Source: Akkermansiaceae bacterium (GTDB lineage: Bacteria > Verrucomicrobiota > Verrucomicrobiia > Verrucomicrobiales > Akkermansiaceae). From it: a DNA stretch of 56,131 nt. The notes beneath the pieces are model-generated. The model worked only from the letters and a program-made list of their open reading frames with translations. It searched no databases and had not been told where the DNA came from. Of this stretch, positions 5,957 to 33,744 are shown one piece after another. Within the stretch, counting starts at the first letter, position 1; the number at the start of each line of letters is the position of its first letter. Made by a program: the position numbers and the translations under genes. The stretch covers positions 1 to 56,131 of the forward strand of contig JAPKCM010000028.1 of the NCBI GenBank assembly GCA_028822935.1, written 5' to 3'.

Positions 5957-6649
5957 ATGCTTTCGCGTTTTCTCCACTTTCTTTCTGCCATCCCCCTTCT
6001 ATTCTTGACCTCCTGTATCGAAGGAGAAGAAGAAATCTGGATCAACTGGGACGCCTCGGGAAAGATTCGAGCCCACTACGAATTCCCTCCAATTCTCAGA
6101 GTGAAACTTGGAGACCCTAAGGCATTTATCATAGCGCTCACAGATCTCGATGAACGCGAAGAAGGGATCGAGATTCAGGAGCTTTCTTTCGAGCAAGTCG
6201 GCTCGAAGTTCGTCTTTCATTTGGAAGCGACCTTTGATGACGTGACTGAGGTCCAGGAGATCTCGGAGCGGAACGCCGACACTTTGGTCGAAGCGATTGC
6301 CGGATCGATGTCACTCGCAATGCAAGGACTCAACATTTCTTTCGAGCGCGAAATCTTATTGAACGGAATGTTTCCGGAGAGAGTGATTCGAAACCCGCAA
6401 TACCTGGGCTCATCCAACTTCCGTTATGAGATACATCTCCCCTTCTCTGTCAAATCAAGCAATGCGCACGCTGTCACCAATGACGGTAAATCGCTGGAGT
6501 GGATCTTCCTGCTTAAGGAGCACACCCAAGAGCCGATGGAGATGTCTCTGGATACACGGATCATCCTTCCTTGGTGGATCTGGGCCATAGCAATCATCCT
6601 GATCCTCATCGGAACGTGGCTGATTTGGAGAAGGTTCTTTCAGCGCTAA
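5957..6649 (+). CDS. Lipoprotein with C-terminal transmembrane helix, unknown function
   Basis: The 230-residue protein has a signal peptide ending in the lipobox LTSC (Cys20), a soluble region of about 180 residues, and a strong C-terminal membrane helix (about 204-224, rich in W and I) followed by RRFFQR. This lipid anchor plus tail helix resembles secreted LppM-like/DUF3153-type lipoproteins, but I cannot name the family with confidence. It is transcribed divergently from cysJ and converges on the acyltransferase gene 4 bases downstream. The double anchoring would hold the domain flat on the outer face of the inner membrane, or bridge membranes. Nothing in the context gives a substrate. 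Confidence 0.8.
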   Translation: MLSRFLHFLSAIPLLFLTSCIEGEEEIWINWDASGKIRAHYEFPPILRVKLGDPKAFIIALTDLDEREEGIEIQELSFEQVGSKFVFHLEATFDDVTEVQEISERNADTLVEAIAGSMSLAMQGLNISFEREILLNGMFPERVIRNPQYLGSSNFRYEIHLPFSVKSSNAHAVTNDGKSLEWIFLLKEHTQEPMEMSLDTRIILPWWIWAIAIILILIGTWLIWRRFFQR

Positions 6650-7898: not shown

Positions 7899-9137
7899 TT
7901 AAAAGCGGCTCGCCGCAGCCAACTCCTCATTACTGACAGACATTGCCGAAATAACATAAGCAGAGGGTTTGAAATTCTCGATGATGATCTCGGTGCGATC
8001 CTCCCAAATCATGCGCACTTCCTTGATATTAAAATTTGGAGTTTTGTGAGGAGCGAAGAGGATGTCGTCATGCGTGCTATTCTCATGAACCTTGAACATA
8101 TCAGGCACAATATCCCCACCGAGATGATCGTCTCGACCGGTAGCGAGATGACAGGTCCCGAGGACTTTTTCATCCTGAATATCCTGGTAGGAAACTGGGA
8201 GCACCTGAGTCCCGAAGCCAAGCTCTCCCAGCGTTCCGGTCATCGGGTCGTCCTGAAGACGGGCGTTGTGAGCATCGATCGTCGCCTGATTGCCCTCAAT
8301 AAGCGTCGAGCGAACGACATCACGATTTTTAACATCGAGAACTCCAAGCGTTCCGTCTTCATATTTCATCGGGAATTTCCCCCGAGCGTCCTGTGGCACA
8401 AAATAGACTTCACCCGCAGGTAAGTTTGCAATGTCCGGAGCCAAGCCCTGACAAAGACCGTGCGATTTTTGAGCCGATTGGCCACCAAGGCCTAACCAAG
8501 CCGTTAAAATTTCTCCGTCCTCTAACTCAAAATCGATTTCCACTTCCTGAGGCTGATCAAGAGCGATCCGCATTTTTTCTGCATCGGCAGAAACCTCTTC
8601 ATAATTCACTGCGAGTCCCGAGCCGAGAATGACATCGTTCATTCCATGCATCGTTGCGCCGCGGAAATTGAACTCCTTGCACTTGGCAGTAAGAGGTGCG
8701 GTTGCTGAAAATGTCGAGATGCAGAGAATAATGTCGTAGTGAGGATAAATGTCGCGATCGAGGGAGAGCTCGGTTCCAGCAACATCATAAACCTCGTCCT
8801 CGAGATCCAGGTTAGAGCCCTTACTGCATTTGTAGGCGAACATTTCCCCGCCCGACATCCCAAGTTCTCCCATCACGCCGTCCTCCAGGCCTTGATAGAA
8901 ATATTGATGTGCATTGTTCTGCACCTTAAAATCCTCGTTCCCAACAAAAGCAAAGTCCTTGATCAACGATTGGGGCTCATCAAAATCTACCAAAACGCAG
9001 ATCCGGCAGCCCCCCGTTGGCTTAAAGACGGTATGCAACAGCCGCTTAAGATCGAATGAAGGAAAGATTCGCTGGTCGGGATTTAGTAGGATTTCTTCTC
9101 GGAGATAGCTAGGGAGTGAGGCGATGGATTGGCTCAT
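7899..9137 (-). CDS. M29-family aminopeptidase (aminopeptidase T-like metallopeptidase)
   Basis: Predicted cytoplasmic metallo-aminopeptidase of 412 residues, the usual length of family M29. The C-terminal half holds the family's metal-binding pattern: the Glu of LPAGEVYFVP, the Glu of GELGFGT, the His of GTCHLATG, and a following His and Asp in DDHLGGDIVPD. The N-terminal half is the Rossmann-like M29 domain. Members remove N-terminal amino acids using two Zn or Co ions. It starts 63 bases after the end of the bifunctional nuclease gene on the same strand, so co-transcription is possible. No signal peptide is present. Confidence 0.8.
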   Translation of the reverse strand: MSQSIASLPSYLREEILLNPDQRIFPSFDLKRLLHTVFKPTGGCRICVLVDFDEPQSLIKDFAFVGNEDFKVQNNAHQYFYQGLEDGVMGELGMSGGEMFAYKCSKGSNLDLEDEVYDVAGTELSLDRDIYPHYDIILCISTFSATAPLTAKCKEFNFRGATMHGMNDVILGSGLAVNYEEVSADAEKMRIALDQPQEVEIDFELEDGEILTAWLGLGGQSAQKSHGLCQGLAPDIANLPAGEVYFVPQDARGKFPMKYEDGTLGVLDVKNRDVVRSTLIEGNQATIDAHNARLQDDPMTGTLGELGFGTQVLPVSYQDIQDEKVLGTCHLATGRDDHLGGDIVPDMFKVHENSTHDDILFAPHKTPNFNIKEVRMIWEDRTEIIIENFKPSAYVISAMSVSNEELAAASRF

Positions 9138-20834: not shown

Positions 20835-20863
20835 TTGAAGTTTTTACGCAAAAATGATTAAAT
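20835..20863 (+). promoter_or_regulatory. Candidate sigma70-type promoter of the DUF1501 gene run
   Basis: TTGAAG (20835-20840) and TTAAAT (20858-20863) are separated by 17 bases and each match four of six consensus positions. Transcription would start near 20870, downstream of the possible ATG at 20854 and upstream of the ATG at 20908, which supports the later start. Confidence 0.35.
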
Positions 20864-20907
20864 ATGCTGAATGTTCTCGTAAGCTTACTAAGCCCGTCCA
20901 AAATACT

Positions 20908-22239
20908 ATGATTGACCCCTGCCCTGGAAATCCGCTCGCCAGTGACTACTCTCGAAGAGGCTTCCTCCAAGTTGGCCTCCTCGGAGGTCTTGGACTCTCT
21001 CTTCCTCAGTTTTTACAGATGGAAGCGCGAGCTGCTCAGAAGTCCTATGAAACTCGACCTGGAGTTGCCAAGTCGGTGATTCAGATCTTTCTCCCTGGCG
21101 GCATGGCCCATCAGGAATCGTGGGACCCAAAACCTTATGCGCCCAGTGAGTATCGCGGTCCTTACGGCACCATTGATACCTCGATCAAGGGCATCAAGTT
21201 CAGCCAGAACATGACGCACCTTTCCAAGGTCGCCGACAAGATGACCATCATCCGCTCGATGGCCCACGGAGAAGCAGCCCACGAACGTGGCACTCATAAC
21301 ATGTTCACCGGCTACAAGCCTTCACCAGCTGTCGATTACCCCTCCATGGGCGCTGTGGTGGCCCACGAAATGGGACCTCGTAACAACCTCCCTCCTTACG
21401 TCTGCATTCCGAACGTCCCCAATGAGTTCGCCAACTCAGGCTACCTTTCCTCCGCACACGGTCCCTTCGCTTTAGGATCGGACCCCTCACGATCTGACTT
21501 TAAGGTCCGTGATCTCAACATGCCGCAGGGCGTTGACGACGATCGCTTCCATCGCCGACGCAATCTCCTGGAGACCGTCGACCACCATTTCCGTACCCTC
21601 GAGGACTCAGACGCCCTAGATTCCATGGATGCTTTTTATCAACATGCCTACAAGCTCATCTCATCTCAAGCAGCTCGCGAGGCTTTCAACCTCAAGGCCG
21701 AGAGTGAAGAAATGCGCAAGCGCTATGGCATGAACCAGCCGGGGCAGCGCATGCTCCTGGGCCGTCGTCTCGTCGAAGCGGGAGTTCGCTTTGTTTCCCT
21801 CACTGCCGGAGGCTGGGATCATCACGATGACATTAAGGGCCAGATTCAGCGAAACCTTCCCACGGTAGATCAGGCAATCGCCGCCCTCATCGCCGATCTC
21901 GATGAAAGAGGCCTCCTTGATTCCACCCTCGTCATGGTAACTTCCGAGTTCGGACGCACTCCTAAGATCAATCAAACAGGAGGTCGGGATCATTGGCCTC
22001 GCGTCTTCTCTGTCGGCCTCGCCGGTGGCGGAGTTCACCGCGGCTTAGTTCACGGCTCCTCGGATTCTCTCGGAGGAGAACCGGAGGAAGATCGCGTGGG
22101 AATCGAAGATCTCGCAACGACCGTCTACAACCAACTTGGAATTACTGCAGACAAAGAATTGATGGCGCCCGGCGACCGGCCAATTGAGATCGTCGACGGC
22201 GGACGCGTAGTGGACGAAATCCTCGCAAAAAAAGCCTGA
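20908..22239 (+). CDS. DUF1501 family protein, Tat-exported
   Basis: A 443-residue protein of the DUF1501 family, abundant in Planctomycetes and Verrucomicrobia and related in fold to alkaline phosphatase/sulfatase-type enzymes. It begins with a twin-arginine signal, SRRGFLQVGLLGGLGLSL at about residues 14-31. Family motifs include VIQIFLPGGMAHQESWDPKP, GWDHHDDI and TSEFGRTPKI near residue 350, and GRDHWP. Its enzymatic role is not established. The stop codon shares one base with the next gene's ATG (22237-22241), so the two are co-translated. A frame-consistent ATG at 20854 exists but would push the Tat motif inward and precede the likely transcription start. Confidence 0.88.
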   Translation: MIDPCPGNPLASDYSRRGFLQVGLLGGLGLSLPQFLQMEARAAQKSYETRPGVAKSVIQIFLPGGMAHQESWDPKPYAPSEYRGPYGTIDTSIKGIKFSQNMTHLSKVADKMTIIRSMAHGEAAHERGTHNMFTGYKPSPAVDYPSMGAVVAHEMGPRNNLPPYVCIPNVPNEFANSGYLSSAHGPFALGSDPSRSDFKVRDLNMPQGVDDDRFHRRRNLLETVDHHFRTLEDSDALDSMDAFYQHAYKLISSQAAREAFNLKAESEEMRKRYGMNQPGQRMLLGRRLVEAGVRFVSLTAGGWDHHDDIKGQIQRNLPTVDQAIAALIADLDERGLLDSTLVMVTSEFGRTPKINQTGGRDHWPRVFSVGLAGGGVHRGLVHGSSDSLGGEPEEDRVGIEDLATTVYNQLGITADKELMAPGDRPIEIVDGGRVVDEILAKKA

Positions 22240-24683
22240 TGAAAACATTCCTCTCGTTGCTCCTCTTCGCATTTTCCCTTGTGGGTGCGTTTGCCTACTC
22301 TCCCCGAATCGACATCATCACTCCGCGAGGGGGACAACTTGGGACTGAGGTAAAAGTCACCTTTCGCGGTGACCGTCTTTTCGAGCCCCAGGAGATCCTT
22401 TTCTACCAACCCGGAATCTCGGTCAAAGATCTCGCCAAAGGGGAAAACCAATATGCTTTTCAAGCGACCTTTGTCGTCGCTCCAGATGCCGCGCTTGGGG
22501 AGCATTCAGTAAGAGTTCGTTTCAAAGATGGCCTGAGTTACCTACGCACTTTTTGGGTCGGGCAGTATCCTTCGGTGAACGAAGCAAAATCAGAGGACAA
22601 CAAGCGCGACCTCAATGACTCCTTTGAAGCGCCTCAGGAGGTGAATCAAAATATCACGATCCACGGAGTGTCCCTTCGGGAAGACGCTGACTATTACCGG
22701 GTTCAGGCCAAAAAGGGGCAACGCCTCTCGGTCGAAGTCGAAGGCCTCCGGCTCGGTCGCATGCTCTTTGACCCCTACGTTGCCATCCTCGATAAGAACC
22801 GCTTTGAAATCGTTTCAAACGATGACTCGGCACTCCTCAAGAGAGACTGCGCCGCCTCCGTCATCATTCCTGAAGACGGCCCCTATACCATTCTCGTCAG
22901 AGAGAGCGCCTATGAAGGCGACCCCAAGTGCGAATACCGTCTGCACATCGGTGACTTCCCCCGCCCCATGTCTGTCTTCCCTCCGGCCGGAAAGCCCGGT
23001 GAAAAAATCGAATTCACCTTCATGGGCGATCCTACCGGACCGATCAAGCAGTCGATTACCATTCCCCAGTCCGACTTTTCAGCCCACGCCAGTGCGGGCG
23101 TCTCCGCACCTTCAGGAATTCCCATTCGGGTTTCTCCGCTGACATATCTCAATGAAAGCGAGCCAAACAACAACACCAAGCAAGCGTTCCCAATGGCAAA
23201 TCCTCCGGCAGCTCCCATCGCTTTTCAGGGAACCCTTTCCGAAGACGGGGATACCGATTACTTTCGCTTTAGTGCTAAAAAGAATCAGAACCTCAGGGTT
23301 CAAGTCTTTGCCCGCGGGATTCGCTCCCCCTTGGACTCAGTCATTGCCATCCGCTCGGTGAAGTCGAACACGTCGCTCGCCAACAACGACGATCAAACCC
23401 AGGGAATCCCCGATAGCCGTCTTGATTTTAAAGTCCCTGAAGATGGTGAGTATGCCGTCAGCATCTACGACCAACTTCGCCGCTTCGGACCTGACTTCGT
23501 TTATCGAATCGAGATCGCCCCGCGCCAACCTGCGATCAGTGTCACGCTCCGAGCGGCCGATCGAAATGACAGTCAAAAATACAAAATGATTTCTGTTCCC
23601 CGCGGCAATCGGCTCATCGCCGTTCCCTTGGTAAGCCGCTCAAGCATTAGCTGCGCTCTCGACTTCACACACAGTGGACTCCCCACCGGCCTCAAGATGA
23701 CCGCTCCCCACGCTCCTAAAAACCTCAACGACTTCCCTGTCCTTTTTGAAGCCGCGGCAGACGCCCCACTAGGAGGAACGCTTTGCTCCTTCACCGTGAA
23801 GGACCCCAAAACTGGCCTCACCGGCCCCTTTAGGGAACAGATCGATCATGTTGCCCTCAACAACCTCGGCGTTTTTCATTCCTACAAAACGGAAAGAATC
23901 GCCATCGCTGTCATCGACGAAGCACCCTTCACCATCGACCTCTTTGTCCCTCCGGTTCCCCTAGTTCCAAGAGGCACGATCAACCTCAAGGTCAGCGCGC
24001 ACAAAAAGGAAGGATTCGATGAAAAGATCCGAATCATCCTTCCCTGGAAACCACCTGGGGTGAATGCCCCGAGCTCCGTCGAGATTCCCAAAGGAAAAAG
24101 TGAAATCATCCTAACCCTCAATGCTAATGCCGACGCGCCTCTGGGCGATTGGCAGATTGGCGTCACGGCGACCGCTGTAGCGAAAGACAAGAAGGGTGAA
24201 ATTCGTCTTTCTTCAAACCTTAAACCCCTCAAAGTTGGAGAGCCTTATGTCAATCTTGCGATTGAAATGGCAGCGACCTTCCCGGGTGAAGATACCCAGG
24301 TCATCGCCAAGCTCGAGCAACTCAAGCCTTTCCAGGGCGAAGCCGAGCTCATTCTGCACGCGCTGCCACACGGAGTCACCGCTACTCCCATTAAGATCAA
24401 GTCGGACACCACAGAAATCGCCATTCCTCTTGTCGTTTCCAAGGAAGCCCGAAAGGGAAAACATGCGAACCTCTTCTGCCAGATCTTCATCCCCCTGAGC
24501 GGTCACTCAATCGCCCACAACGTCGGCCACGGCGGAACGCTAAGAATCGACCCGCCTCCTCCGGCTCCCAAGAAGAAAGAAGAGCCCAAACAGATAGCCA
24601 AGAAGGAAGAGCCCAAAAAGGCCGCTCCTAAAAAGCCCCTTTCTCGTCTCGAACAACTCCGCAAAGCCAGCGCCAAGCAATGA
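22239..24683 (+). CDS. Secreted protein with IPT-like and two PPC (pre-peptidase C-terminal) domains
   Basis: The 814-residue protein has a clear signal peptide (cleavage near residue 19), an N-terminal IPT-type beta domain (IDIITPRGGQLGTEVKVTFRG), a first PPC-type domain near 135-240 (EDADYYRVQAKKGQRLSVEV), a second near 330-430 (DGDTDYFRFSAKKNQNLRVQV), further beta domains, and a Lys/Pro/Glu-rich C-terminal tail (PAPKKKEEPKQ). PPC domains bind surfaces or aid secretion; there is no recognisable catalytic domain. It is locked between the DUF1501 and PSCyt1 genes by 1-base and 4-base overlaps. This trio is a known conserved arrangement, so the protein probably acts with them outside the cytoplasm. 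Confidence 0.82.
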   Translation: MKTFLSLLLFAFSLVGAFAYSPRIDIITPRGGQLGTEVKVTFRGDRLFEPQEILFYQPGISVKDLAKGENQYAFQATFVVAPDAALGEHSVRVRFKDGLSYLRTFWVGQYPSVNEAKSEDNKRDLNDSFEAPQEVNQNITIHGVSLREDADYYRVQAKKGQRLSVEVEGLRLGRMLFDPYVAILDKNRFEIVSNDDSALLKRDCAASVIIPEDGPYTILVRESAYEGDPKCEYRLHIGDFPRPMSVFPPAGKPGEKIEFTFMGDPTGPIKQSITIPQSDFSAHASAGVSAPSGIPIRVSPLTYLNESEPNNNTKQAFPMANPPAAPIAFQGTLSEDGDTDYFRFSAKKNQNLRVQVFARGIRSPLDSVIAIRSVKSNTSLANNDDQTQGIPDSRLDFKVPEDGEYAVSIYDQLRRFGPDFVYRIEIAPRQPAISVTLRAADRNDSQKYKMISVPRGNRLIAVPLVSRSSISCALDFTHSGLPTGLKMTAPHAPKNLNDFPVLFEAAADAPLGGTLCSFTVKDPKTGLTGPFREQIDHVALNNLGVFHSYKTERIAIAVIDEAPFTIDLFVPPVPLVPRGTINLKVSAHKKEGFDEKIRIILPWKPPGVNAPSSVEIPKGKSEIILTLNANADAPLGDWQIGVTATAVAKDKKGEIRLSSNLKPLKVGEPYVNLAIEMAATFPGEDTQVIAKLEQLKPFQGEAELILHALPHGVTATPIKIKSDTTEIAIPLVVSKEARKGKHANLFCQIFIPLSGHSIAHNVGHGGTLRIDPPPPAPKKKEEPKQIAKKEEPKKAAPKKPLSRLEQLRKASAKQ

Positions 24684-27466
24684 AGTCCCTCCTTTCTCTC
24701 CTCATTATTGCACCCCTCTCAGCAGTGACCTTCGAGCAGGTCCGACCCATCCTTGAAGTCTCGTGCGTCGAGTGTCACAACGACGATAAATCAAAGGGCG
24801 AACTGAAGCTTCACACGAAGGCCGGACTCGTCACCGGCGGAGATACCGGGAGCGCTCTCGACTTCGAAAAAGTGGATGACTCAGAAATCCTTCGGAGACT
24901 GAATCTCTCGCATGATGACGATGAATTTATGCCTCCTTCCTCCAAGAAGAAGAAGCGTCAGGCACTCTCTCCCGCAGAAATTGGCGCGCTCAAATCTTGG
25001 ATCGAGGCCAAGGCTCCGTGGCCCGAAAACGTCACCCTTGTCGCCAGAGAACGCGGACCGGTTTTAGAAGACGCTTCAGCACCTGATCCCGATCTTGCTT
25101 CCATCGCCGTTTATCCCAATTCCGTCTCGCTGGAGACCAAGCGCGATTACCACAAGCTCATTGTCTTCGCCACTGGCAAGGATGCCCTCACTCGCGACGT
25201 CACCGCATCGGCAAAGTTCGAACTTAAAGATCCGACGCTCGCGGAAATCGATGGCTCCACCCTCACCCCTCTGAAAGATGGTTCATCAACCATCACCATC
25301 AAATTTCGAGGCCAACAAGTGGACGTGCCTCTCACCGTAAAAGGAGCAATAACTGATCGAAAAATCAGCTTTCAACAGGACGTCGTTCCCGTTTTCACCG
25401 CCGGTGGCTGCAACACTGGATCCTGCCATGGCTCGGCGCGGGGCCAGGACGGCTTCATGCTTTCTCTCTTCGGCTATGACCCCAAGGGTGACCACTATCG
25501 CGTTACCCGAGAGCAATCCGGCCGCCGCATCAATCTCGCCATCCCGGAAGACTCCCTCCTTCTCACAAAAGCCAGTGGTGCCGTTCCTCACACCGGCGGT
25601 AAACTTTTCGACACCGATCATCCCTTCTACGCCACCTTGTTGGAATGGATTCAGGACGGTGCCCAATTCGACCCATCCAACATTGCCCTCCCCGTGAAGA
25701 TCGAGGTCGACCCCAAAGAGTTCGTCCTTGAAGGACAGGCCAAAAGCATCCCCCTCACCGTCAAGGCGACTTACTCCGATGGCACCGACCGCGACGTCTC
25801 CACCCTTTCCGCTTACACCACCTCAAACGACACCTCCGTTGGCATTGATCCTGCCACTGGGATCGCAGTTTCAAAAAAGCGCGGTGAAGCCTTCCTCATG
25901 GCTCGCTTTCACACCTTCACCGAAGGAGCTCAAGCCATCGTCATTCCTGACAAACTGAAGTATGAGCGCCCTCAGATCACCGCTCTTAATTACATCGACA
26001 CTCATGTGCATGAGAAACTCAACAAACTCCGCATCATTCCTTCGGAGATTTGCACCGACGAAGTTTTTCTTCGTCGAGTGACTCTCGACGTCACCGGTCT
26101 CCTTCCCACCGAAGAAGAACGCACCAAGTTCCTGGCAGACAAGGACCTCAAAAAGCGGGAGACCTTGGTCGACGAACTTCTCAGCCGAAAGGAGTTCACC
26201 GAGATCTGGGTCATGAAATGGGCCGAGCTTCTTCAGATCCGCTCTACCGGAAACAACGCTCAAGACATCAGCTACAAAGCTGCCCTCCTCTGGTATGAGC
26301 AACTCCGCGAAGAGATCGCTGCAAATCGTCCCTTCAACGAAATCATCCACGACATCCTCGCTTCCCGCGGCGGCACCTTCGCCAATCCTTCGACTAACTA
26401 TTACAAGCTTGAAGCCGACGTCAAAAAGGTCACTGAAAACGTCGCTCAGGTCTTCATGGGAACTCGCATTCAGTGCGCGCAGTGCCACAACCATCCTTTC
26501 GATCGCTGGACCATGAATGACTACTATGGCTTCGCCGCTTTCTTCTCCCAGGTGAAAAGAAAGCGCGCCGAGGATCCTGCCGAGCAAATCATCTTCGATG
26601 GTGGAGGCGAGATCAACCACCCTGTCACCAAGCAAAAATCCCTTCCAAAGTTTCTCGGAGGAGCAGTCATGGAAGGGAAGGGCAAAACACGCCGACAAGC
26701 GGTCGCGAGTTGGCTCACGGCACCCGACAACCCATGGTTCGCACGCAATGTCGCCAACATCATGTGGTCCCACTTCTTCGGAATTGGAATCGTTGACCCG
26801 GTTGATGATGTCCGCATCTCCAATCCAGCGACCAACCCCCAGCTCCTCGATGCGATGGGAACTAAGTTCAAGGATTACAACTTCGATATGAGGAAGCTCG
26901 TGCGGGATATCTGCACCTCGCGCACCTATCAATTGTCGACCCGCGTGAACGAGACCAATAAAGATGATACCAACAACTTCTCACACGCCCGTATCCGTCG
27001 GGTCCGCGCCGAAGTTCTCTTGGACACACTGGCCCAAACAACTGGAACGCCGAACAAGTTCAAAGGTCTCCCCATCGGGTCACGGGCCGTTCAAATCGCG
27101 GACGGAAACACCTCCAATTATTTCCTCACCACCTTCGGTCGAGCCACTCGTAAAACGGTTTGCTCCTGTGAAGTAAAGATGGAGCCCAACCTTTCTCAAG
27201 CACTTCATCTTATCAATGGCGACTCGGTGCACAATCGAATCGAGCGCGGAGGGATCGTCCCTAACCTGCTCAAGGAAAAGAAATCTTCCGAACAAATCAT
27301 CCGCTCCCTCTACCGTCGTACGCTTACCAGGGAGCCCACCGACACCGAGCTTTCAAAACTCCTCAACGCACTCAGTGTCGCGAAGGATGATAACGAGAAG
27401 AAACTAATCCTGGAAGACATCTTCTGGGCCCTCCTGAATTCCAAGGAATACCTCTTCAACCACTAG
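24680..27466 (+). CDS. PSCyt1-DUF1549-DUF1553 protein with Ig-like domain (planctomycete-type cytochrome)
   Basis: A 928-residue secreted protein. After a short signal peptide comes the cytochrome-like PSCyt1 domain with the heme motif CVECH at 29-33 and MPPSSKKK nearby, a possible Met ligand. An Ig-like (BIG_2) domain spans about 130-220, followed by a region with CNTGSCHGSARGQDGF (a second C-x4-CH pair), another Ig-like domain, DUF1549 (from about 430, RRVTLDVTGLLPT; CAQCHNHPFDRW near 600) and DUF1553 (from about 670). Such proteins are common in these phyla and are linked to polysaccharide use, but their activity is unproven. Translation is coupled to the PPC gene through ATGA at 24680-24683. 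Confidence 0.88.
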   Translation: MKSLLSLLIIAPLSAVTFEQVRPILEVSCVECHNDDKSKGELKLHTKAGLVTGGDTGSALDFEKVDDSEILRRLNLSHDDDEFMPPSSKKKKRQALSPAEIGALKSWIEAKAPWPENVTLVARERGPVLEDASAPDPDLASIAVYPNSVSLETKRDYHKLIVFATGKDALTRDVTASAKFELKDPTLAEIDGSTLTPLKDGSSTITIKFRGQQVDVPLTVKGAITDRKISFQQDVVPVFTAGGCNTGSCHGSARGQDGFMLSLFGYDPKGDHYRVTREQSGRRINLAIPEDSLLLTKASGAVPHTGGKLFDTDHPFYATLLEWIQDGAQFDPSNIALPVKIEVDPKEFVLEGQAKSIPLTVKATYSDGTDRDVSTLSAYTTSNDTSVGIDPATGIAVSKKRGEAFLMARFHTFTEGAQAIVIPDKLKYERPQITALNYIDTHVHEKLNKLRIIPSEICTDEVFLRRVTLDVTGLLPTEEERTKFLADKDLKKRETLVDELLSRKEFTEIWVMKWAELLQIRSTGNNAQDISYKAALLWYEQLREEIAANRPFNEIIHDILASRGGTFANPSTNYYKLEADVKKVTENVAQVFMGTRIQCAQCHNHPFDRWTMNDYYGFAAFFSQVKRKRAEDPAEQIIFDGGGEINHPVTKQKSLPKFLGGAVMEGKGKTRRQAVASWLTAPDNPWFARNVANIMWSHFFGIGIVDPVDDVRISNPATNPQLLDAMGTKFKDYNFDMRKLVRDICTSRTYQLSTRVNETNKDDTNNFSHARIRRVRAEVLLDTLAQTTGTPNKFKGLPIGSRAVQIADGNTSNYFLTTFGRATRKTVCSCEVKMEPNLSQALHLINGDSVHNRIERGGIVPNLLKEKKSSEQIIRSLYRRTLTREPTDTELSKLLNALSVAKDDNEKKLILEDIFWALLNSKEYLFNH

Positions 27467-27653
27467 CGGCAGCTCCCGGTGGATACCCTCATCTTGACCA
27501 GGGCTTTCTACAACCCGGAACGATTCCTCTGCCCTCCTCTCAAGCCTTGGGATTAGGGCTGGAATTTTCACACAGATTTGAAGAGGACTGGGAGGTGAAT
27601 CTGAATTTTCGCTTGAAAGAACGTTGCTTCACTTTCCCGTAACAGAAGAGCCG

Positions 27654-29972
27654 ATGCAGACCATTTCTCGTTTTCAGCTCTCAGCGCCCCTTTTCTCTTT
27701 GGTGGTGGCTTTTGGGACCATTTTTTCAGCACCCGCTGCTGAGAAGATCACCTTTGACGATCACATCTTTCCAATCCTGGAATCCAGCTGTCTGAATTGC
27801 CACAATCCCGACAAGAAAAAAGGCGGGCTAGACCTCTCTACTTACCAAGGTGCTCTTTCCGGGGGATCGGGCGGAAAAATTGCGATGACGGGCGAAGGCG
27901 CGAGTTCGAAAATTTACACCTCCATCACCCATACTGAGGAGCCCGTGATGCCACCAGAGGGGGACAAGCTCGGCAAAAAAGAAACAGACCTCATCCGAGC
28001 CTGGGTCGATGGCGGCCTTCTCGAAACCAAGTCTTCCAAGGCCCGTAAACCGAAGAAGCCAGCCTTCTCTCTCTCCCCCACGACGAACCCACAGTCGAAG
28101 CCAGAAGGTCCCCTTCCCATGCCGCTGGATCTTCTTCTGGAACCCGCCGTAATCACGGAGCGCGCCACCGTCGTTAACGACATGGAAGCCAGCCCTTGGG
28201 CTCCTCTTCTCGCGGTTACGGGACAACGCCAGATTCTCCTTTATCACACCGACTCTCTCGAACTCGTTGGCATTCTCCCCTTCCCTTACGGCACTCCGGA
28301 AACCGTTTCCTTTCATCCCGGCGGGAAGTACCTCCTCGCTGGTGGAGGAATCGGCGGCAAATCCGGAACAACCGTCACTTGGGATGTCACAACCGGTAAC
28401 GTCCTCATGACGATGGGCAAGGAGTTCGACTCCGTTCTCGCGGCGAGTCTCCGGGCCGACCTCGGGGCTGTCGCTATGGGAGGTCCTTCTCGACTGATCA
28501 AATTTTGGGACACGCAGCTTTCAGAGCAGACCCTCAAAATCAAGAAGCACACCGACTGGGTCATCTCACTGGCCTACTCGCCTGACGGAGTTCTCCTCGC
28601 CACCGGAGACCGAAACAATGGTATTCAAATCTGGGAAGCCATTACCGGAAATGAATTCCACTCCCTGCGTGGCCATCAAAAATCAATCGTCGATCTAAAA
28701 TGGCGCGCCGACTCGAACCTCATTGCCTCTGCTTCAGCCGATGGCGACCTTGCCTTTTGGGACATGAATCAGGGCAAGCAAATCAAAAAACAACGAGCGC
28801 ATGATGCGGGCGTCCTCGCAATGGATTACGCCCGCGACGGACAGCTCATTTCTTCAGGACGCAATAAACGAGTCAAGATTTGGAAATCCGATTTGGCACT
28901 CAAAAAAGAGCTTCCTCCCTTCTCAGCCGAGATCACCGAAGTGGAATTCTCCCACGACTCGAAGCGCTTCTTCACCGCGGATTGGGACGGCAAGATTCAG
29001 GTCTGGGAAAATGATTCCTACAAACAGATCGGAACCCTGGAAGTAAATCCCCCGACCATCGCAACCCGTCTCACCCACTTTAATCCACAAGCCGCCACGC
29101 TCGCCAAGGCAATAGCAGACACCCGGGTCGAACTTCCCAAGAAAGAAGCTGCCCATCAGAAGGCTCAGGATTGGCTCGCGTCGCTTCAAAAACGAATCCC
29201 GGAACTTAAGCAAGTAATCCCCAAACTTCAAAAAGAGCTTGGACAGCAAAACGTTCTCTGGAATCAGTTTGAGAACAAACAGAAGCAACTCCACGCTCAG
29301 ATCCAGCAGTACGAAAAGGAGCTTCAGCAGCGCCACGAAACCGTCAATATCCTATCCAAAGAGCGGGAAAAAATCGTCCCCGAACTCAACGAAGCGCGGA
29401 AGCAAAAAAATGAAGCCTTGGTCAAGCAATTCGATCAGCGCATCAATGATCAGGATAACAAGATTAAGGCGGGACGCGACAATATGAATTCCCGGACCAT
29501 CGCCATCGGGAAGCTTCGCGAAGCGCACAAAATCGCCGAAGCGAAGCGCAACGAGGCCGGAGAGCTCAAAAAGATGAAGGACGAAGAGCTTAAGAAGGTC
29601 CAACCTGAACTCTCAAAGCGAGAGAAGGAACTCGAGCCAGCGAAGAAAGGGCTGGAAGGGAATGTGAAAGAGCTCAAGGAAACGAGAGATAAACTGGCAG
29701 CAGCAGAGAAAGCCGATGTCGATCACCAAGCTAAAATTAAACGCTGGAAAGCGGCTCAAATCAACACCGAGCTTATAAAAGCCAAAGGTAATCTTAAGGA
29801 ATCAATGGAATCGCTCTCACTCCTTCAGTTGGATTTACAAGTCGCAGCCAAAGAAGAAAATGCCGAAACCGTTCAATCTCTCAAAATAGAAATCGACAAA
29901 GCCACCGAAACTAAGGAACGAGAAGACAGCTCAGTCGCAGGTCTTCAGGCCCGTTACAAAGCCGCGAAATAG
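27654..29972 (+). CDS. Secreted cytochrome-c-like/WD40 protein with long C-terminal coiled coil
   Basis: From the ATG at 27654 the protein is 772 residues. A signal peptide ends near residue 29. A PSCyt1-type domain follows, with heme motif CLNCH at 46-50 and a possible distal Met in VMPPEGD. A WD40 propeller covers about 170-470 (blades such as HTDWVISLAYSPDGVLLATG and HQKSIVDLKW). From about 500 to the end it is an almost continuous Lys/Glu/Gln-rich coiled coil. This tail is unusual for such proteins and suggests a rod or oligomerising scaffold. The TTG at 27624 would extend it by ten residues, but the signal peptide favours the ATG. A 187-base gap separates it from the PSCyt1 gene. Confidence 0.83.
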   Translation: MQTISRFQLSAPLFSLVVAFGTIFSAPAAEKITFDDHIFPILESSCLNCHNPDKKKGGLDLSTYQGALSGGSGGKIAMTGEGASSKIYTSITHTEEPVMPPEGDKLGKKETDLIRAWVDGGLLETKSSKARKPKKPAFSLSPTTNPQSKPEGPLPMPLDLLLEPAVITERATVVNDMEASPWAPLLAVTGQRQILLYHTDSLELVGILPFPYGTPETVSFHPGGKYLLAGGGIGGKSGTTVTWDVTTGNVLMTMGKEFDSVLAASLRADLGAVAMGGPSRLIKFWDTQLSEQTLKIKKHTDWVISLAYSPDGVLLATGDRNNGIQIWEAITGNEFHSLRGHQKSIVDLKWRADSNLIASASADGDLAFWDMNQGKQIKKQRAHDAGVLAMDYARDGQLISSGRNKRVKIWKSDLALKKELPPFSAEITEVEFSHDSKRFFTADWDGKIQVWENDSYKQIGTLEVNPPTIATRLTHFNPQAATLAKAIADTRVELPKKEAAHQKAQDWLASLQKRIPELKQVIPKLQKELGQQNVLWNQFENKQKQLHAQIQQYEKELQQRHETVNILSKEREKIVPELNEARKQKNEALVKQFDQRINDQDNKIKAGRDNMNSRTIAIGKLREAHKIAEAKRNEAGELKKMKDEELKKVQPELSKREKELEPAKKGLEGNVKELKETRDKLAAAEKADVDHQAKIKRWKAAQINTELIKAKGNLKESMESLSLLQLDLQVAAKEENAETVQSLKIEIDKATETKEREDSSVAGLQARYKAAK

Positions 29973-30027: not shown

Positions 30028-33000
30028 ATGGTTCCCTCAATGCGCTACTCTTTGCTTCTTGGCCTTGTTGGCATCACCTTTGCCGAGGCGCAGGTCTCAG
30101 ATACACCCGGACTCGGAGATCATCGGTATAGCAAGGCCTTGACCGATTCTTACGAACGAATCGACCCGGGCAAGGACGGCTGGGAGAGCGAGCGTCAAGG
30201 GGAAGAGTTTGCTACCCGGCTCAAAGAATTTGTAGTTGCCCTCACCGATGGTGAGGCTCCGGATCCAGATTTGTTTACGCTCGATTTTAAGGTAAGCCCC
30301 TTGCGGCCCACGAATCTTGATTCAATCGAGATCGAAAACATGACCGTCCAACGGGGATCGAAGTTGCCTGAACCGCGTGCCGATTTCATCTCTCCTGCCT
30401 GGAAGGATTTCGATGGGAAAGTGAAAGTGACCCGCATCGAGAACCTCGCCTGCGAAGCACTCATTACGATCAAAAAAAAGGGACACCAAATCAACGCCAC
30501 TTGGAAATGTTCGTGGACTTCCGGGTTTCTTCTCAAATCGATTCAGGTCATCGACTACGAGGAAATCACGGCCCCACCGCTCTTGCAGGATGTGACAGAA
30601 TCAGTCCTCGGGAAAACTAACGCCTATCAGGAACAATTTCTCCGCTCGACCGATCACTGGCGCCTGCGGCTCCCACGCGACTTTGGCCTCGACGCTCCGG
30701 CCAATCACGGCTTGGCAATCGGGGACATCAATGGTGACGGGCGAGAGGATCTCTACCTCTGTCAGCAAGGTGGCCTACCAAATCGGCTTTTTGTTCAAGA
30801 AGCCGATGGCTCCCTTCGCGACATCAGCGCCGAGAGCAATACCGACATTCTAGACTACTGCGCCGCAGCCCTTCTGATCGATCTCGATAACGACGGCGAC
30901 AAGGACCTCGTTCTCTCTCAGGACTTCAAGATTCTCTTCTTCGACAACCTCGACGGCAAAGGTCACTTCGAACTGATCTTCGGAAATTCGACTCGGGCTC
31001 AAAGCTTTTCCTTAAGTGCTGCGGACATCGACGAAGATGGCTTTCTCGACGTCTACATCTGTGGCTACAACCCTTCCTTTTCCGCCGCCCGTTCCGGGGC
31101 TCTGGGCGAACCGATTCCCTTTCATGATGCCAACAACGGAGGCCCCAACATGCTCTGGCGAAATAAAGGGAACTGGAACTTCGAAGACATCGCCGAAAAA
31201 GTAGGCCTCGGAGTCGACAACACCCGTTTCTCCTTTGCCGCCTCTTGGGAGGATTACGACAACGACGGTGATCTCGACCTCTATGTCGCCAATGATTTTG
31301 GACGCAACTGTCTCTACCAAAACCAAGGCATTCAGCCAAGTGGCCTCCCCTTTTTCAAGAACATTGCGGGGAGTCTCAATCTCGAAGATACCTCCGCTGG
31401 AATGTCGACCAACTGGGGCGACATCAATCGAGACGGCCGGATGGACCTCTATGTTTCCAACATGTTTTCAAGCGCGGGGAATCGGATCACCTTTCAAAAC
31501 CAATTCAAAACTGAAGCAGATCAATCGGTCCGCTCCCACTATCAACGGATGGCTCGTGGAAATACCCTCTTCCAGGGAAATCCAGATGGAAGCTTCACTG
31601 ACGTCAGCATGACCACTCAGACCACAATGGCACGGTGGTGTTGGGGCTCCACCTTTACCGATCTCAATAACGATGGCTGGCTCGATATTCTCGCCGCAAA
31701 TGGGTTCATTACCGCTGAGGACACGGGAGACCTTTGAAGTGTCTACTGGCGACAGGTCGTGTCGCAATCTCCACTCGATGCCCAAGGCCGCGACGGACAG
31801 CTCCAGAGCTACCGCCAGGGTTGGAAGGCTCTCAACCGACTTCTCCACGAAAACAAATCCTTTAGCGGACGGGAGACCAACAACGCCTTTCTAAACTGTG
31901 GCGCTGACAACACTCGCTTCGCCGACGTTTCTTCCGCCATCGGCTGGGACTTCGCTGATGACGCGCGAGCCATTGCAGCAGTCGATTGGGATTTTGACGG
32001 CGACCTCGATTACTGGGTCTCCAACCGCACCGCACCCAGAGTTCGTCTCCTCGAAAACACTTTGGAGAACGCTAATCATTTCATCTCCTTCCTTCTCGAA
32101 GGAAATGGCACGAGCACCAACCGTGATGCGATCGGCGCCCGGCTCGAACTCCGTCTTGGCGATGGAGAGCAGCCAAGAATCAAAACTCTTCACGCCGGCC
32201 ACTCCTTTCTCTCGCAATCATCCCGATGGCTTCACTTCGGCCTGGGCGGAAAAGCCCAAATTCAGTCCATCACCGTCAACTGGCCAGGTGGTGACCCCGA
32301 AACTTTCGAAGTCACCAAAGCCGATCACCACTACCTTCTCAAACAAGGAAATGGTTCCGCGCTTCCCTTCTCGACTCCCAAAAACATCAAGCTCCAGCCT
32401 AGCTCCCAACCGGTCCATCCACCAACCCCTCTCGCGCGGACCATCCCACCTTCGGGAAACATCCTTCCTCCCTTGAAACTCGATGGTAACACGGAAGAAC
32501 TTATAGCCCCTACCCTAATCCAACTTTGGAGCGGAACCTGCCCTCACTGTCTTGCCGAACTCCCTAAATGGAAGAAATGGGATCACCTCATCCTCCTGTG
32601 CACGGACTTCAAAACTGAAGATCAAGAGCAGGCTCGGATCGCATTTCGTAAAACGGGATTCACCAACGATCCTTTGTTTTGTTCCGAAGAAGAGCTTCTT
32701 TCCCTCGACGCTTTTCAGGCATCTGTTGTCGATCTTTGGATTCCCCTTCCTGTCCCCAGCAGCTTTTTAATCACTCCCACCTGGGAAGTCCTCGGAATCT
32801 ATCGAGGAGCAATCGAGGAAGAGCTGGTGACCAAAGATGCTGAACTCGCCTTGCAGCTCGATCGCCGCGAAGCCGGGGCACCCTTCCCTGGAACATGGAT
32901 CGCCGAGATCCCTATTGGCAATCCGATGAGAACGTCCAATCAACTATTAGAACGCGGCTTGGACCAACAAGCCATTTCCTATCTTCAGCGAGCCGTCCCC

Positions 33001-33744
33001 CGCCTTCATCCGAAATTGAGCCGCTTCGAAAAAGGAGATTCCCTCCTCACGCTTGCCCGTCTCCTCGGAATCAATGGGCGATCTGGTGAAGCTCTCCCTG
33101 TGCTTATCAAATCCCGGGCGCTTCTCCCTGAAGACTCCCGGGTTGGTCTTCTTCTCGCCCAAGCCTACCTCGACACAAAGGATCTTAAAGGTGCGCTTCA
33201 GGCTAATTCTCTCACTCTCAATCAGCACCCGACAAATCTGAATCTTCTCGATCAACGATCTCTGATCCTGAGGCAGCTGAAAGAATGGCTCTCAGCAATC
33301 GAAACCGATCGTCGGATTGCCCAACTTTCACCATCATCGGCTGATGTGAAAACGAGGATCGGCAGCACACTCCTTTTTGCAGGAAAGCCTCAGGAAGCGA
33401 TTCAGCAGCTAAAACAAACCCTCGCAAAGCATCCTCGCGAATTGGATGCCGCAAATATTCTCGCGCGTGTTCTTTCCTGCCATTCCAATTCATCCGTTCG
33501 CAGTCCGAATGAAGCCCTCGTTCTTGCCAATCGCCTGTGCCAAATTTCCCGCAATCGGAATATCAGCTTCCTCCTGACTAAAGCCACCGCCCTCGCCAAC
33601 TTAGAAAAATATGACGAAGCCGATACCATCCTTAAGCTTGTGAAGCAGCAAAAGAATCTCTCTCCCTCCCTTGAGAATCGCCTGACACAGATCAACAATT
33701 CACTTCAAGACAAAACTCCCTACCGCGAGACCCGTTGGCCATAG
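30028..33744 (+). CDS. FG-GAP/UnbV/thioredoxin/TPR secreted protein read through an in-frame UGA, candidate selenoprotein
   Basis: One frame runs from 30028 to 33744 (1238 residues) except for a TGA at 31735-31737 (residue 570). Before it: signal peptide, then six FG-GAP calcium-loop repeats (DINGDGREDLY, DLDNDGDKDLV, DIDEDGFLDVY, DYDNDGDLDLY, DINRDGRMDLY, DLNNDGWLDIL). After it: a seventh repeat (DWDFDGDLDYW), the UnbV/ASPIC domain (RDAIGARLELRLG, HAGHSFLSQSSRWLHFGLG), a thioredoxin-like domain with C838-P-H-C841, and a TPR region. The architecture is that of one CRTAC1-like protein. The C-terminal half has no credible start of its own: only a GTG at 31759, without ribosome site and inside a hairpin. 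That hairpin resembles a bacterial SECIS element, so residue 570 is probably selenocysteine. Conventional calling would give two genes, ending at 31737 and starting at 31759. A nonsense mutation is the alternative. The ATG at 30028 was chosen over a TTG at 30004. Confidence 0.75.
31735..31737 (+). other. In-frame UGA codon, predicted selenocysteine
   Basis: The codon lies between DTGDL and SVYWRQVVSQSPLD, both in the same frame and both typical of the protein family. The surrounding sequence has no insertion or deletion, unlike the two frameshifts elsewhere in this window. Neither selA, selB nor the selenocysteine tRNA gene is in the window, so decoding capacity in this organism cannot be judged here. 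Confidence 0.65.
31738..31775 (+). promoter_or_regulatory. SECIS-like stem-loop immediately after the in-frame UGA
   Basis: GCGACA (31749-31754) pairs perfectly with TGTCGC (31760-31765), leaving the loop GGTCG. AGTG (31738-31741) can pair with CACT (31772-31775) to close a lower stem. The loop G-U that SelB reads in E. coli fdhF is here at 19-20 bases after the UGA; in fdhF it is at 20-21 and the loop is GGUC closed by A-U. The size, loop sequence and spacing all fit a bacterial SECIS. The stem is within coding sequence, as required in bacteria. Confidence 0.65.

Follow-up and report, generated by a model that had tools for sequence, protein, structure and literature searches.

Bacterial selenoproteins that depend on a bacterial selenocysteine insertion sequence (bSECIS), such as FdhF of E. 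coli, combine an in-frame UGA codon with the SelA, SelB and SelD proteins, tRNA-Sec and a hairpin in the coding region. TlpA, ResA, StoA and CcmG are extracytoplasmic thiol-disulfide reductases with a thioredoxin fold and a CxxC motif at the start of a helix, while murine CRTAC1 consists of an FG-GAP propeller followed by an UnbV/ASPIC-type domain; we know of no selenocysteine (Sec) in CRTAC1. Here we describe a gene that joins features of all of these, a reading frame at 30028-33744 of a 56,131-nucleotide stretch of DNA from an Akkermansiaceae bacterium (the whole stretch is called the window below), which is interrupted by a single UGA at codon 570.

We propose with high confidence, from sequence comparison, that this gene encodes one exported selenoprotein in which UGA570 specifies Sec through the organism's own SelA, SelB, SelD and tRNA-Sec, directed by a bSECIS hairpin, and in which the selenol would be redox active. 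The decoding of UGA570 as Sec, which the original prediction had advanced, has strong computational support from the Sec machinery, from UGA or Cys in homologues, and from the hairpin with its covariation and frozen synonymous positions.

Results

Translation of 30028-33744 from ATG 30028 (ATG 30040 is the other candidate start) gives 1238 residues with a lone in-frame TGA at 31735-31737, and the N-terminus, judged by eye, resembles a signal peptide. An open frame of 668 codons, as found 3' of the UGA, would arise by chance with a probability of about 3.6e-13 under an independent-bases model. Pfam recognizes FG-GAP_3 in five stretches, UnbV_ASPIC at residues 701-769 and TPRs, and DxDxDG-type blade motifs lie at residues 233, 285, 333, 409, 465, 545 and 653, six before the UGA and one after it. 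The AlphaFold2 model (34 sequences) has a mean predicted local distance difference test score (pLDDT) of 91.2 and a predicted template modelling score of 0.87, and places Sec (position 549 of the model) at the start of a helix (548-559) between propeller strands. Its best PDB match is CRTAC1 (9etn; Foldseek E 9.5e-22), which VIA aligns with Z 40.2 and a root-mean-square deviation of 2.3 over 458 residues, with a sequence match of E 2.4e-8. The window protein thus has an FG-GAP propeller followed by an UnbV/ASPIC domain, as CRTAC1-like proteins do, but identity to CRTAC1 is 20% and the match spans the propeller and UnbV only, not the thioredoxin and TPR parts. Other VIA propeller matches, LGI1 and aldos-2-ulose dehydratase among them, were regarded as instances of a shared fold only; the propeller span in Table 1 was set from the model ranges of the propeller structure matches.

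The thioredoxin-like domain has no Pfam match in the window protein, and an over-cut-off match (AhpC-TSA) appears only in one paralogue (L084). Modelled alone (33 sequences, pLDDT 90.8), the domain matches TlpA, ResA, StoA and CcmG in Foldseek, best TlpA (1jfu; E 2.6e-6, TM 0.6), and has, like them, a thioredoxin fold with CxxC at a helix start; it differs from them in sequence (11-24% identity among the matches listed) and in sitting inside a propeller selenoprotein. Across 33 aligned domains, the second Cys of the CPHC motif is invariant and the first is present in at least 90%. The frame broken only by the TGA, the six repeats before it and one after, the CRTAC1-like order of FG-GAP and UnbV, and the thioredoxin-like and TPR regions downstream had all been claimed in the original prediction; retranslation and the motif positions reproduce the first two, the 9etn match bears out the third, and the downstream regions are recovered by Pfam (UnbV and TPR) and by the TlpA-like model.

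The UGA is a shared feature of the family. Among 47 loci of the genome contig collection that encode a relative, the 39 close homologues all have a stop at the aligned position, within the motif DL-*-S-x-x-W; each alignment contains one stop, except for L035 with two, and L036 and L047 contain unread residues. The eight distant loci (L056-L063) have no stop at the site where they align, L062 being unaligned over it. Within the genus, the protein is matched in 25 of 27 genomes, and 12 genomes other than the source have a homologue with 53-56% identity over nearly the full length and one TGA each. In the source genome (G000; 4.59 Mb, 156 contigs), TGA occupies the aligned site in 11 genes, that of the window included, and TGC in two (L091, L092), which read uninterrupted through KDY-C-S-x-F/Y-W; in the remaining FG-GAP paralogues of this genome the motif was not found. 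L091 and L092 share FG-GAP and UnbV with the window gene, with Cys in place of Sec, and differ in having neither the SECIS hairpin nor a downstream CxxC domain.

A motif scan that allowed any residue at the site and required D at -2, W at +4 and an FG-GAP motif upstream returned 66 TGA, 3 TGC and 2 AAC codons in loci fetched by protein similarity, and 151 TGA, 3 TGC and 2 AAC in all loci; the total of 151 is not independent, because the extra 85 were mostly fetched with a pattern that itself contains TGA. The two AAC matches were set aside, since they lie elsewhere in the gene (DLNNDGW). Among 133 distinct sites, residue +1 after the UGA is S in 128, residue +5 is R in 124 and residue +7 is V in all. 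A pseudogene or sequencing error would account for a single internal stop in an uncurated assembly, but we regard this explanation as practically negligible, since all 39 close homologues, which come from other assemblies and almost always contain a single stop, have the UGA at the aligned position, and it recurs within the genus. Two loci of the genus do look disrupted: a homologue in G015 (G015:C78:118019-119911, L228) with one TGA, one TAG and three TAA, which retains the UGA-hairpin motif and looks like a decaying copy, and an orthologue in G017 (contig C9, L078) divided over two reading frames near residue 500 by a frame break or an assembly error.

Judging from these sequences, the family is wider than the window shows, with several genes per genome, two subfamilies and members in Planctomycetes. 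In a tree of 48 chosen rows (38 UGA, 2 Cys, 8 others), subfamily A (29 rows) is separated with support 99, and subfamily B (9 rows) and the Cys pair with support 100 each; the UGA, Cys or other state takes the minimum of two changes. The third Cys gene (L050), left out of the tree, lies on a planctomycete contig on which a Cys-type and a Sec-type homologue are adjacent (6003-6005 and 8791-8793).

The source genome encodes the machinery to read such codons. tRNA-Sec scores over the Rfam cut-off (53.9 bits) and is also called by ARAGORN as tRNA-SeC with anticodon tca, and profile matches over cut-off were obtained for SelA (485.6 bits), SelB (278 bits) and SelD (386.5 bits). The SelD gene (G000:C53:6429-7358, L257) itself has one in-frame TGA. 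Given that the frame continues past the UGA and that a tRNA of the genome has the anticodon UCA, another amino acid could in principle be inserted by suppression or under an altered code. We consider this extremely unlikely: the covariance model and ARAGORN both identify the tRNA in question as tRNA-Sec (no whole-genome search for further UCA tRNAs was made), those motif-bearing homologues that have no UGA have Cys and not Trp, Arg or Gly, and a SECIS hairpin accompanies the UGA. Nor is UGA reassigned, because TGA ends 7 of the 33 long window frames kept, that is, the first half of the selenoprotein gene and six others, including the DUF1501 and PPC-domain genes of the cluster just upstream. 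Neither a lack of machinery nor an unrelated residue such as Trp or Arg at the site, which the original prediction had named as signs against Sec, appeared; the genes selA, selB, selD and tRNA-Sec that it had asked for are all present, and motif-bearing relatives have only UGA or Cys at the site.

A hairpin begins 11 nt past the UGA, with 6 bp, a 5-nt loop and 17 nt from UGA to loop, and an energy of -7.9 kcal/mol for the 17-mer and -9.3 kcal/mol for the 21-mer; its GGUC loop resembles the loop of fdhF. The bSECIS model in the text of a recent review specifies a loop of 3-9 nt, a stem of 4-16 bp, G in the first two loop positions, a distance of 16-37 nt from the UGA and a minimum free energy of at most -7.5 kcal/mol (PMC13188914), and the window hairpin lies within every one of these bounds (5 nt, 6 bp, GG, 17 nt, -7.9 kcal/mol). 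Rfam has no match over the hairpin, and in the three Cys genes it was not found at the site. Counting in either of two registers (5-nt or 4-nt loop), all six pairs form in 52 of 59 distinct sites from protein-fetched loci and five in the other 7; over all loci, for which the search pattern constrained part of the left arm and the loop but not most of the right arm, six pairs form in 103 of 133 distinct sites and five in 24. Across 53 sequences of subfamily A, every one fetched by protein similarity, pairing holds in 98.4% of cells and 10 are double-change cells; no shuffle of 500 matched the covariation score, the paired cells or the double-change cells, and 2 of 500 matched the number of further pair types, figures that are inflated by kinship among the sequences. 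Synonymous recodings of the window hairpin are less stable than the hairpin itself (p 0.003), and across 56 distinct hairpins, with the codon usage of the window gene applied to all, the mean z is -2.4 and p is below 0.05 in 39. Codons 571-580 have a normalised synonymous entropy of 0.215 against a mean of 0.787 (44 homologues, 310 conserved columns), the lowest of 302 windows of codons.

The hairpin also contains GTG 31759, which opens a 661-codon open reading frame, so that the downstream half does have a formal start, contrary to the original prediction, which saw no plausible one. The UGA might then be a true stop, ending a 569-residue protein, with the second half translated separately from this codon; of 133 distinct sites, 125 have GTG there and two others have ATG or TTG. 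We judge this very unlikely, because the break would cut within the propeller and the Cys paralogues run uninterrupted through the site; moreover, the codon is GCG in 6 of the 133 sites, two sites have no start codon within 15 codons, the residues between UGA and GTG are conserved (S +1, R +5, V +7), and the frozen synonymous positions fit a hairpin and not a start alone.

The distribution of the element agrees with decoding as Sec. A pattern made up of the Asp-Leu codons, TGA and the left part and loop of the hairpin has 11 matches in the source genome and 120 spread over 23 of the 27 genus genomes, with a maximum of 12 per genome; the reversed pattern has none in all 27. SelA is found in all 23 pattern-bearing genomes and in 25 of 27 overall; of the four without the pattern, two have SelA (G006, G020) and two do not (G022, G025). 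tRNA-Sec is over cut-off in 20 of 27. The 39 genomes that hold the close homologues include Planctomycetes, and SelA is over cut-off in 28 of them, compared with 16 of 287 other genomes sampled from Verrucomicrobiota (Fisher 1.7e-20, with a background of Verrucomicrobiota only and two of the 39 genomes seemingly shared with the genus sample); among genomes with distant homologues it is over cut-off in 2 of 8. In the whole phylum sample of 288 genomes, 17 have SelA over cut-off and one, the source genome, has the pattern, a scan that says little on absence because no other genus genome was sampled and the strict pattern misses variants.

Candidate redox cysteines accompany the UGA in nearly all members. 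Of 149 distinct UGA proteins, seven shortened by contig ends were dropped, and a simple CxxC pattern was found 254-306 residues past Sec in 124 of the 142 scorable ones. The members without it have a Cys at +2 (U-x-C) in 15 cases and neither motif in 3, and both motifs occur together in none; the 15 U-x-C members, all from subfamily B, are not independent of one another. At least four changes are required for the CxxC trait on the 48-row tree, and at least two for U-x-C. In the source genome, a pair of selenoprotein genes from subfamily B is arranged tail to tail (G000:C8:25636-27573 on the + strand, L090, and 27634-29268 on the - strand, L093), one with U-x-C and no CxxC domain and the other with a CxxC domain; opposed pairs of the same two motif types also occur in G002, G003, G009, G012, G017, G019 and G026.

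Table 1 Positions of the gene, its predicted elements and the upstream cluster in the window
Feature	Position	Strand	Details and basis
Predicted selenoprotein gene	30028..33744	+	1238 codons, UGA counted as Sec; one TGA in an otherwise open frame
FG-GAP beta-propeller	30568..32061	+	Seven DxDxDG motifs, Sec on helix between blades; Pfam, motifs, AlphaFold2
UGA codon, predicted Sec	31735..31737	+	Residue 570, motif DL-U-SVYW; homologue and paralogue alignment
Predicted bacterial SECIS hairpin	31749..31765	+	GCGACA-GGUCG-UGUCGC; model criteria, covariation, synonymous freezing
UnbV/ASPIC domain	32128..32334	+	PF07593, residues 701-769, E 9e-15
TlpA/ResA-like thioredoxin domain	32413..32919	+	AlphaFold2 pLDDT 90.8; Foldseek TlpA 1jfu
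CPHC redox motif of thioredoxin domain	32539..32550	+	Residues 838-841; sequence
TPR repeats	33073..33642	+	Pfam TPR families; helices in AlphaFold2 model
Co-directional upstream cluster	20854..29972	+	DUF1501, PPC-domain, PSCyt1/DUF1549/DUF1553 and PSCyt1-WD40 proteins; Pfam

Discussion

Between blades of the CRTAC1-like propeller, our model of the protein has a helix whose N-terminus bears Sec. The selenol would act as a redox-active nucleophile, with an extracytoplasmic substrate such as a peroxide, a sulfoxide or a disulfide as its oxidant. The chain's own TlpA-like CxxC domain may then re-reduce the selenol, while members without the thioredoxin domain would mostly use U-x-C as an internal resolving pair and the TPRs would hold partners. 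The mutual exclusion of CxxC and U-x-C fits such a selenol, for whose oxidised form we infer two alternative resolving partners, the thioredoxin domain and a nearby Cys.

Alternatively, Sec could be present without being a redox catalyst, binding a metal such as copper or playing a structural part on a propeller that binds ligands. In favour of this idea, propellers of the integrin type and of CRTAC1 are known for binding ligands rather than for catalysis, and TlpA-like domains can deliver copper, with TlpA complexes with ScoI and an oxidase subunit being among the Foldseek matches. We nevertheless consider a non-catalytic Sec rather unlikely, since a CxxC domain in 124 of 142 members and U-x-C in 15 of the 18 others fit a thiol/selenol cycle, and since no Cys other than that of the Sec site was found in the propeller that is kept in a majority of both subfamilies (His not examined).

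Several observations count against a redox-active Sec decoded through the hairpin. Six of the 133 distinct sites retain only three or four pairs; these share the variant GCGTGA or GCGGGA ... TGTCAC, in which GUGA and UCAC could, by eye, pair around a longer loop, the alternative being poorer for GCGGGA. Pairs with a change on both sides are not above shuffles, 135 of 500 of which reach the count, and 17 of the 56 distinct hairpins singly miss p<0.05 in the synonymous test. tRNA-Sec over cut-off was not found in 7 of the 27 genus genomes, two of them 93-97% complete and rich in UGA genes; G018 and G019 are among the seven despite SelA and many UGA genes. Of the 39 UGA-bearing genomes, 11 have no complete SelA (two have a fragment), and these 11 are mostly metagenome-assembled genomes and include two large planctomycete genomes. 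The exclusion of U-x-C and CxxC depends on one subfamily (B), so that its Fisher value overstates independence, the propeller Cys 245 and 345 conserved in subfamily A occur in none of 9 subfamily B rows (the grouping being imperfect), and the neighbouring genes are mostly not conserved among UGA-bearing loci.

The original prediction knew of no described selenoprotein family of this kind, and we found none either. The main text and family table of a 2026 review, which counts 119 prokaryotic selenoprotein families, name no FG-GAP, UnbV, ASPIC or CRTAC1 family, and its main text does not mention Verrucomicrob- or Planctomycet- (PMC13188914); the comparison with the 119 is by names, and several of those families are hypothetical proteins. 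NCBIfam models of the catalogued hypothetical selenoproteins do not match the window protein, and NCBIfam of June 2026 has no match on the FG-GAP/UnbV part and 11 matches in the TPR region, all below cut-off. In the accessible text of the following papers, FG-GAP was not found in PMC12013277, PMC2398784, PMC5029168 or PMC1088965, nor UnbV in PMC12013277, PMC5029168 or PMC1088965. Sec machinery has been reported in planctomycetes in the main text of PMC4807772, where UnbV was not found, although a mention is possible in its supplementary tables of selenoprotein candidates. In the literature searched, with most subscription papers and bioRxiv preprints outside its scope, no description of such a family was found. 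Searches that depend on Sec/Cys pairs may have missed it because Cys homologues are few.

On balance, and with modest confidence, we favour the view that these genes of Verrucomicrobia and Planctomycetes constitute a large, hitherto undescribed family of exported selenoenzymes, in which a thioredoxin domain recycles the propeller Sec of its own chain and which has reached a dozen copies in single genomes. To our knowledge, no activity has been described for bacterial FG-GAP/UnbV proteins, which would gain a candidate active-site residue, and substrate-specific paralogues would make selenium a main currency of envelope redox chemistry. Most characterised selenoproteins, according to the review's text, have a thioredoxin-like fold (PMC13188914); here Sec would be placed on a propeller instead, at an unusual copy number per genome. 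As annotation that stops at the UGA would split the genes, records for Verrucomicrobia and Planctomycetes may list many proteins in two pieces.

The cluster upstream of the gene may belong to the same pathway, and its adjacent cytochrome-type PSCyt genes weakly suggest a place in envelope electron transfer. Only 3 of 39 UGA-bearing loci, many with short flanks, have a DUF1549/DUF1553-DUF1501 pair on their upstream side, and we therefore rejected the neighbourhood as a guide to function; L051 and L053 have single weak matches. Ten flanking proteins from eight loci had no match or were assigned to Band_7, lectin/PA14, AIR-synthase-like, COX1, WD40 or sulfatase families.

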